A stretch of 64,000 nt of DNA from Natranaerofaba carboxydovora (GTDB lineage Bacteria; Bacillota; Natranaerobiia; Natranaerobiales; Natranaerofabaceae): positions 2,860,501 through 2,924,500 of the forward strand of contig NZ_CP054394.1 in the NCBI RefSeq assembly GCF_022539405.1. Direction: 5' to 3'. Made by a program: the position numbers and the translations under genes. Positions 32,584 through 34,670 of this stretch are shown one piece after another (position 1 is the stretch's first letter; the number at the start of each line of letters is the position of its first letter). Below the pieces are notes generated by a model. It was not told where the DNA came from. It saw only the letters and a list, made by a program, of their open reading frames with translations, and did not search any database.

Positions 32584-33306
32584 TTACAATAAATTATTCA
32601 GCCATTCGAAGATAAAGAACTTTATTTGTTTATCTGCTTCAGTTTTAACTTCTTTCTCTTCAACTTCATCATCTTGCGATTTTCCTTCTTCTAATTCTTT
32701 TTTGCTTTCATCATGAAAATCATCTCTTACAGCCAAGTCAACGTAACATAAAGGAGGAAATAAAACACACCACCAATTTTCCCCTTGACCTTCACCAATT
32801 ACTACATTAAACGAAATGTATTTGTCCCCTTCTAAAACTCCATTATAGTAACGCCTTGTAGGGAAATATTCTTCTTTAACTTTTGTTTCTACTTCATAAT
32901 TGTAACCTTTTTTGTCTAAAAAATCTTCTATTTCACTGGATATTTCAAACTTTTTAGTATGAAGTTTCTTTTCAGCTTTTTCTACATCATCAATATTATC
33001 TAACTCACCATCTAATTTTTCTGTAATTAAATCTCTTATATCGAGTTTTAATTTTTGATCTTCGCTGCTATCACTGTTTGCAAGAACGTGAAGCCGGATA
33101 ATATTTTCATCCCTTAGTGCACTATATACTCCTTCATCTGAAGTTTCATTAATTTGATTATGAGAAGCAAATAAATAAGGATTAGAAGCTACCTCAGAAT
33201 ATATACACTGGTATACTCCTATAACCAAACTTATAACACCTAGAAGTACAAAAAAACATTTTATATTATACTTTTGTCCTTTTATTTTATTCAATATTCG
33301 ACCCAT
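32584..33306 (-). CDS. spoIIR: Stage II sporulation protein R
   Basis: The 240 residues have one N-terminal membrane segment (about 17-34) and the SpoIIR block IIRLHVLANSDSSEDQKLKL, then YFPTRRYYNG and ENWWCVLFPPLCYVDLA. SpoIIR is made in the forespore, exported to the septum, and triggers processing of pro-sigma-E. Its ATG overlaps the end of sigG by about 20 bases, so the two are probably co-translated. The C-terminal acidic linker is longer than in Bacillus. Confidence 0.92.
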   Translation of the reverse strand: MGRILNKIKGQKYNIKCFFVLLGVISLVIGVYQCIYSEVASNPYLFASHNQINETSDEGVYSALRDENIIRLHVLANSDSSEDQKLKLDIRDLITEKLDGELDNIDDVEKAEKKLHTKKFEISSEIEDFLDKKGYNYEVETKVKEEYFPTRRYYNGVLEGDKYISFNVVIGEGQGENWWCVLFPPLCYVDLAVRDDFHDESKKELEEGKSQDDEVEEKEVKTEADKQIKFFIFEWLNNLL

Positions 33307-34102
33307 CTACGCTCTCCCCCTGCTTCTCTGCTAAAGATTTTTTCAAAGCTTTCAAAGATGTTTTTTCAAGTCTTGATACCTGAGCCTGGGAAATATTTAA
33401 TTCACTAGAAACTTCCTCCTGAGTTTTGCCCTGGAAAAACCTCAGTATCAAAAGCTCTCTCTTTTTTTCTGGCAGCTTGTCTAAAGCTTCCTTCAGTGCC
33501 AAATTTTCAATCCAGGAATCAAAGGTCTCTTTTTCATCTTGAATTTGGTCGAGAACAAGTAAAGGCTCAGTACTATCTGAGAAAACCGGTTCGTGCAAAC
33601 TCATAGGTGTATTGTTAGCATTCATAGCCAGTACAACTTCTTCAGAAGAGATAGATAGTTCATCTGCAATCTCTTCAAGGGTAGGCTCTTTTTCTTTATC
33701 TTTAGACAATTTTTCTTTGGCCCTTGTTATATCTTGACCTAAGTTTTTTAACGAACGGCTTATTCTTATTGAGTTATTATCCCTTAAATATCTTTTTATC
33801 TCACCGATTATCATTGGAACCGCATAAGTAGAAAACTTGACATTATGTGTCGGGTCAAAGTTATTAACCGCTTTTAATAATCCTATACAACCAACTTGAA
33901 AAAGGTCGTCCATATTTTCATTACGATTCTTAAATTTTTTTAAAACACTTAGTACCAGCCTTAAATTCCCCTGTATAATTGTTGTTTTAGCTTTTTCATC
34001 TCCATTCTTGTAGCGCCAAAAGAGTTCTTCTTGTTCTTTAGAATCCAAAACCGGTAGTTTAAAGCTATTTACACCACTAATGGTAACTTTTTTTAGTTTA
34101 AT
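33287..34102 (-). CDS. sigG: RNA polymerase sigma-G factor with apparent ATT start
   Basis: About 271 residues from the ATT at 34100-34102. The protein has sigma-70 region 2 (DLFQVGCIGLLKAVNNFD, then KFSTYAVPMIIGEIKRYLRD), region 3 and region 4 (QGKTQEEVSSELNISQAQ, then VSRLEK). KVTISGVNSFKLPVL matches the very start of Bacillus sigma-G. The longer frame starts at TTG 34156 with no ribosome site, whereas AAAGGAGGGG lies six bases before the ATT; its codons would be read through as protein in the longer form. Sigma-G runs late forespore genes. It overlaps spoIIR. Confidence 0.92.
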   Translation of the reverse strand: MKLKKVTISGVNSFKLPVLDSKEQEELFWRYKNGDEKAKTTIIQGNLRLVLSVLKKFKNRNENMDDLFQVGCIGLLKAVNNFDPTHNVKFSTYAVPMIIGEIKRYLRDNNSIRISRSLKNLGQDITRAKEKLSKDKEKEPTLEEIADELSISSEEVVLAMNANNTPMSLHEPVFSDSTEPLLVLDQIQDEKETFDSWIENLALKEALDKLPEKKRELLILRFFQGKTQEEVSSELNISQAQVSRLEKTSLKALKKSLAEKQGESVDGSNIE

Positions 34103-34250
34103 TTTTCTCCCCTCCTTTCCTTCCTTCAATTTCCTTCTATTGTGAAGTATTGCCAAATGTTAAATGATTTAGACATTAAATTGTAAATTTTTTTAATAGA
34201 ATTAATTTGATATAATAGGGACGACTATATTATTCGAAGGGAGAATACAC

Positions 34251-34670
34251 ATGGCAAAGCTAACGAGGTTTGGGATATCTATACCGGAAACACTTCTCGT
34301 GGAATTTGATAAAGTAATAAATAGGAAGGGATATCCTAATAGAAGTGAGGCTATAAGGGACCTTATAAGGGAACACTTAATTGAAAAGGAATGGACAGAC
34401 GACAGGGAGGAAGTAGCAGGAACTGTCACACTAGTATATGACCATCATGTTAAGGGGCTAACCAACCATCTAGTAGCTCTGCAGCATGATTATCATGATA
34501 TGATCTTATCCACAATGCATATACACCTAGATCATGATAACTGTCTAGAGGTTCTTGTAGTTAAAGGAAAAGCAAAGAGGGCTCAGGAAATGGTAGAGCA
34601 GATGACCACAGTAAAAGGTGTAAAACATGGAAAGTTTACAATGACCTCAACAGGAAAAAATATTTCATAA
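34251..34670 (+). CDS. nikR: Nickel-responsive regulator NikR
   Basis: The 139 residues have an N-terminal ribbon-helix-helix (RFGISIPETLLVEFDKVI) and a C-terminal ACT-like nickel domain. The nickel ligands appear kept: His in LQHDYHD, two His in MHIHLDHD and Cys in DNCLEVLV. NikR represses nickel uptake genes when nickel is plentiful. A TATAAT box lies at 34211-34216, but I see no clear -35 or operator palindrome. It is divergent from sigG and ends at a strong terminator. No nickel transporter is adjacent. Confidence 0.93.
   Translation: MAKLTRFGISIPETLLVEFDKVINRKGYPNRSEAIRDLIREHLIEKEWTDDREEVAGTVTLVYDHHVKGLTNHLVALQHDYHDMILSTMHIHLDHDNCLEVLVVKGKAKRAQEMVEQMTTVKGVKHGKFTMTSTGKNIS

Follow-up and report, generated by a model that had tools for sequence, protein, structure and literature searches.

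To our knowledge, only a handful of bacterial genes start with AUU, AUC or AUA, and several of these are regulators. The gene of initiation factor IF3, infC, has AUU, AUC or AUA starts and is autoregulated by IF3. In Staphylococcus aureus, AUU and AUA starts with an extended, strong Shine-Dalgarno sequence gave about 10% of the AUG output (PMC13009471). In Streptomyces, IF3 represses sigR through its GTC start, and replacement of this codon by a canonical one resulted in SigR overproduction (PMC5472188). In B. subtilis, a GTG start, the promoter spacing and a hairpin at the ribosome-binding site all dampen sigG, and their removal led to early sigma-G activity (PMC5942855).

The gene described here is a sigG-like gene with a putative ATT start, located in a window of 64,000 nucleotides (the whole stretch of DNA that was analysed) from Natranaerofaba carboxydovora. 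It resembles infC in codon class and Shine-Dalgarno arrangement, but infC is autoregulated by IF3, whereas the product of the window gene, termed sigma-G2 here, is not a translation factor. As in B. subtilis sigG, a sigma-F promoter (predicted in the window) is combined with a start weaker than AUG, which in B. subtilis acts alongside other brakes on early sigma-G; B. subtilis has a GUG (1.3-fold effect) and a ribosome-binding-site hairpin on its sole sigG after sigE, while the window gene has an AUU, an open Shine-Dalgarno sequence and the position of a spoIIR-linked second copy (PMC5942855). With sigR it shares a non-canonical start after a strong Shine-Dalgarno sequence on a sigma factor gene that is first in an operon with its partner, and in both cases the start is prone to be annotated wrongly, at a canonical codon that lies within or ahead of the Shine-Dalgarno sequence (PMC5472188). 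SigR, however, is a stress sigma factor with the anti-sigma factor RsrA and was studied by experiment, whereas sigma-G2 is a sporulation sigma factor paired with SpoIIR and known from sequence. The Firmicute regulator genes ccpN (AUA) and cvfC1 (AUU) of Staphylococcus and Bacillus likewise combine near-cognate starts with extended Shine-Dalgarno sequences; their starts are conserved across species, while the ATT of the window gene was seen in one genome only (PMC13009471).

Identification of the gene

Two overlapping genes on the minus strand were assigned as follows:

33287 to 34102, minus strand: sigG-like sporulation sigma factor gene, second copy, 271 aa from ATT, assigned by profile scores and tree
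32584 to 33306, minus strand: spoIIR, 156 bits with TIGR02837 (above the cut-off), with its own Shine-Dalgarno sequence CAGGGGGAG

The spoIIR ATG falls inside the last codons of the sigG-like gene. The window gene scored 382.3 bits with the SigG equivalog model NF006071 (cut-off 372), but only 347.3 bits with the equivalog model TIGR02850 (spore_sigG; cut-off 457), and because of the latter score it was called a sigG paralogue and not sigG proper. Besides sigF, the genome (3,264,732 bases in one contig) has two sigG-like genes. The canonical sigG passed both models with 492.5 (NF006071) and 492.6 bits (TIGR02850); it is located directly after sigE (G000:C1:855411) and starts ATG ACA GCA AAT AAA GTT GAG ATT TGC GGT. 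The window gene does not follow sigE, but sits between nikR and spoIIR. The name sigG, given to it in a sequence-only reading, thus describes a sigG-like gene above the NF006071 cut-off and not the main sigG, which adjoins sigE and has an ATG. Judged by its sequence, the window gene represents a second, divergent sigG that is predicted to form an operon with spoIIR. The genome also has SASP and SpoIVA genes. A nikR-like regulator gene (34251-34670; NF003381, 202 bits) is divergent from sigG2-spoIIR and shares the intergenic region with it. The residue related to CsfB (N45 of B. subtilis SigG, Q in the window gene) was not considered further, as any of N, Q, S, H, K, R and G can occupy this position in sigG.

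In a maximum-likelihood tree of 61 sequences the window gene fell into a group of 20 members, mostly spoIIR-linked copies, with a support of 100/99. Its closest kin were the copies of two other genomes of the order (G001 and G002; support 100/95), and its own end branch was long (0.86), as in a fast-evolving paralogue. The spoIIR-linked clade was defined in this analysis, and the window gene shares its tree position, spoIIR directly downstream and the promoter GYYTA-N15-GGCAATACT. At least 10 other genomes have both a sigE-linked and a spoIIR-linked sigG. The second sigG is widespread, being present in many clostridia, and apparently unstudied. A second sigG in a spoIIR operon with a conserved sigma-F-type promoter was seen in the window (32584-34102) and at loci L010, L011, L039-L046, L050, L053, L056, L059 and L061. 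In Fermentithermobacillaceae (L088, L091, L094, L096 and L104), sigE, sigG and spoIIR motifs occur together at one locus.

Start codon and ribosome-binding site

The start region contains two elements:

34100 to 34102, minus strand: ATT (AUU), start codon of the sigG paralogue next to spoIIR, aligned with the ATG of the orthologues in G001, G002 and the rest of the clade
34111 to 34118, minus strand: Shine-Dalgarno sequence AAAGGAGG, with a spacing of 8 from GGAGG to ATT and a predicted unpaired probability of 0.93

The minus strand reads GGAAGGAAAGGAGGGGAGAAAA followed by ATT AAA CTA AAA AAA GTT ACC ATT AGT GGT, and around 34100 GGAAATTGAAGGAAGGAAAGGAGGGGAGAAAA stands directly 5' of this ATT. 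Taken at its full length, the Shine-Dalgarno sequence is AAAGGAGGGG (34118-34109), with 6 bases between its end and the ATT. The near-cognate codon occupies the conserved start position behind a strong, extended Shine-Dalgarno sequence, and no usable canonical start is present: ATG, GTG and TTG are all absent from codons -11 to -7 relative to the GVN motif. The best Shine-Dalgarno match comprises 9 bases for the ATT as against 4 for any canonical alternative. As background, 281 long ORFs were taken from the window and 15 further 20-kb stretches of this genome, 364 kb in all. Of the ORFs in this set that have their best site in front of a near-cognate codon, the window gene had the longest Shine-Dalgarno sequence. 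A search of this genome for the exact 16S 3' end pattern gave no match, and pairing with the anti-Shine-Dalgarno sequence was therefore assumed from the general bacterial sequence.

The orthologues of the two other genomes could be aligned without a gap. G002 reads GGGAGGGTTGTATA ATG AAG TTA CAA AGA GTT and G001 reads AAAGGAGGGTATTGAT ATG AAA TTA AAC AGG GTT, with both ATG codons opposite the ATT; the resulting N-termini are MKLQRVTLSG and MKLNRVTLSG, compared to IKLKKVTISG in the window. The in-frame sequence upstream of the start encodes no peptide common to the three genomes. In the 20 spoIIR-type relatives compared, ATG was located at the window's start codon or one codon further out, and one further relative (L057) has a GTG start. 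Since both orthologues of the order use ATG, AUU is not needed by the clade.

The infC gene of the same genome served as positive control and also has an ATT start (GGGAGGTGA CAC AAT ATT TCT AAG). All clearly recognisable infC starts in ten relatives (L119-L128) are ATT or ATC, and the in-frame upstream stop is usually the TGA of AGGAGGTGA.

As the alignment of orthologues, the Shine-Dalgarno sequence and the position of the promoter described below agree, the AUU at 34102 is very probably the real start. Both the ATT start and the strong site six bases before it had been proposed in the sequence-only reading, and both were borne out.

Predicted promoter and leader

The following elements were predicted upstream of the start:

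34170 to 34174, minus strand: GTCTA, predicted -35 element of the sigma-F type, at a distance of 15 bases from the -10 element
34145 to 34154, minus strand: GGCAATACTT, predicted -10 element of the sigma-F type, with conserved counterparts upstream in 20 relatives and an overlap with the TTG at 34156-34154
34103 to 34138, minus strand: predicted short purine-rich 5' leader of about 36 bases, nearly unstructured, with the start point inferred from the promoter

The sigma-F-type promoter of the clade, or a close match to it, was present upstream of the start in nearly all of the 20 spoIIR-type relatives. Most sigma-F promoters of B. subtilis also have a 15-base spacing (PMC5942855).

Folding of the window leader revealed no hairpin (MFE -3.4, z 0.4). 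In the spoIIR-linked sigG of G002 (L010), which has an ATG start, the Shine-Dalgarno sequence was predicted to lie in a hairpin with an unpaired probability of 0.04, compared to 0.93 in the window. In a comparison that covers three genomes, the AUU of the window gene and the buried Shine-Dalgarno sequence modelled for G002 are perhaps two different brakes.

Start codons of other sigG genes

The start regions of 256 distinct sigG-like genes were read, with codons counted back from the GVN motif. ATG was found in 150 genes, TTG in 63 and GTG in 35, while 2 had GTG only at codon -10 and 6 had none of these between codons -11 and -7. One of the 6 was the window gene; the other five were canonical sigG genes of Syntrophomonadaceae, which read TAA ATC AAC AAG (G016 and G097), AGG ATT (G115), TTC ATA (G089) and CGA ATA (G099). 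At codon -7 the Syntrophomonadaceae loci L179, L180, L185, L195 and L204 have ATC, ATC, ATT, ATA and ATA, respectively. The five cases belong to what is probably the family of Syntrophomonas wolfei. In loci L183 and L184 AAAGGG is immediately followed by a GTG at codon -10, but the start could also be an ATT; both were counted as ambiguous, and two pattern matches (L244 and L245) were not sigG. Another 75 genomes from the phylum had been chosen regardless of start codon, and their sigG starts were all canonical.

Most sigG genes of Syntrophomonadaceae have a TTG one codon earlier; where it was lost, the next codon was always ATH, 7 codons before GVN. The non-canonical genes occupied at least 4 separate branches of the gene tree, and some close sisters had kept TTG or ATG. 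Between G016 and G097, sigG differed by 14 synonymous and 1 nonsynonymous substitutions, none of them in the first 25 codons, which argues that the gene has been maintained, including its N-terminus. Two other genes were used as controls in this family, since ylmC, sought near sigG as a neighbour control, was not found there. The starts of spoVT (30 of 30 loci, 19 of them TTG) and spoIIID (30 of 30) were always canonical (60 of 60 together), and among the three genes tested near-cognate starts were therefore specific to sigG.

The recurrent loss of the canonical start suggests that low translation of sigG has repeatedly been tolerated or favoured. The link from these genes to the window gene is one of analogy, because they are canonical sigG genes and not the spoIIR-linked paralogue. 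Sigma factor genes dampened by odd starts were already known from Streptomyces (sigR) and Bacillus (sigG); no report of AUU, AUC or AUA on sigG was found in the literature.

Proposed role of the AUU start

In the mechanism proposed here, the gene of sigma-G2 heads a sigma-F-driven sigG2-spoIIR operon and would be translated from the AUU at 34102. The initiator tRNA would read this codon perhaps one-tenth as often as an AUG, as with infC, pcnB, ccpN and sigR, presumably because IF3 discriminates against a near-cognate codon, and the strong Shine-Dalgarno sequence would partly compensate. One mRNA could thereby yield normal amounts of SpoIIR, which has an ATG and a Shine-Dalgarno sequence to itself, and little sigma-G2 early in the forespore. 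By analogy with these systems, it is likely that AUU lowers the translation of sigma-G2. The whole explanation, in which sigma-G2 is dampened relative to SpoIIR, is somewhat favoured, and the chances that lowered translation is the selected role of the AUU appear evenly balanced. The earlier suggestion that a weak start holds sigma-G down fits B. subtilis sigG, Streptomyces sigR and the recurrent losses in Syntrophomonadaceae, and its dampening part is likely to stand, while an effect on timing with respect to engulfment is only a possibility. The gene is, however, a paralogue and not the main sigG, and both the main sigG and the closest orthologues use ATG. The broader idea that selection in Clostridia has repeatedly used AUU, AUC and AUA starts to brake sigma-G, with forespore IF3 and the state of the ribosomes setting the amount of sigma-G and initiation fidelity helping to time the switch from sigma-F to sigma-G, is considered unlikely.

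The main rival explanation, and a serious one, is drift in a duplicated gene. The AUU would then be the real start, but the underlying G-to-T change would simply have been tolerated, with sigG present in a partly redundant copy and the organism sporulating rarely, if ever; the lower translation would be unselected. The ATG of the closest orthologues, the second sigG with its ATG start in the same genome and the fast evolution of the paralogue agree with drift. Natranaerobius thermophilus has key genes for sporulation but is listed as non-sporogenous (PMC3533761), so there may be little selection for spore formation in this order. However, the 271-codon frame is intact and its product scores above the SigG cut-off of NF006071, the Shine-Dalgarno sequence is perfect and predicted to be open, the genome has retained SASP and SpoIVA genes, and near-cognate starts recur on sigG genes under purifying selection. 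Drift is considered rather unlikely.

Translation from a canonical codon is far less probable than drift. The reading frame is open from the program-made ORF start at TTG 34156 and includes the Shine-Dalgarno sequence in frame; two TTG codons upstream of the ATT were rejected as starts:

34154 to 34156, minus strand: TTG without a Shine-Dalgarno sequence
34127 to 34129, minus strand: second in-frame TTG, in the leader, with GAAGGA too close

A third in-frame TTG is located at 34048 (codon 19), and TTG is a common start in sigG genes. The predicted -10 element covers 34154-34145, and TTG 34156 would thus be upstream of the transcript. TTG 34129 lacks a properly spaced Shine-Dalgarno sequence and would translate the strong one, and a start at TTG 34048 would lose the conserved GVNSFKLPVL stretch. 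The sequence-only reading had rightly described TTG 34156 as having no site and as translating the ribosome-binding sequence, but had overlooked TTG 34129. An assembly error, with a C on the plus strand at 34100 (G on the minus strand) and hence an ATG start, would take one base in a genus represented by a single genome, but is the least probable reading, as the genome is a single contig of 100% completeness, substitution errors are rare in finished genomes and the analogous ATC in Syntrophomonas is common to two independent assemblies.

If the AUU acts as proposed, near-cognate starts on sigma-G genes, with their several independent losses of the canonical codon, would add a much stronger brake to the translational tuning already known for sigG. 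They would also offer a direct way of testing whether IF3 and initiation fidelity gate a developmental switch. Annotation pipelines would misplace such starts. A possible further near-cognate start was seen at L143 around 6445 (minus strand), where AGAGGTGAACAGTC ATT AGT TTT GAA GTA stands before a PAS-like protein and the next canonical codon is 15 codons in; a similar case was found at L144 around 14565.
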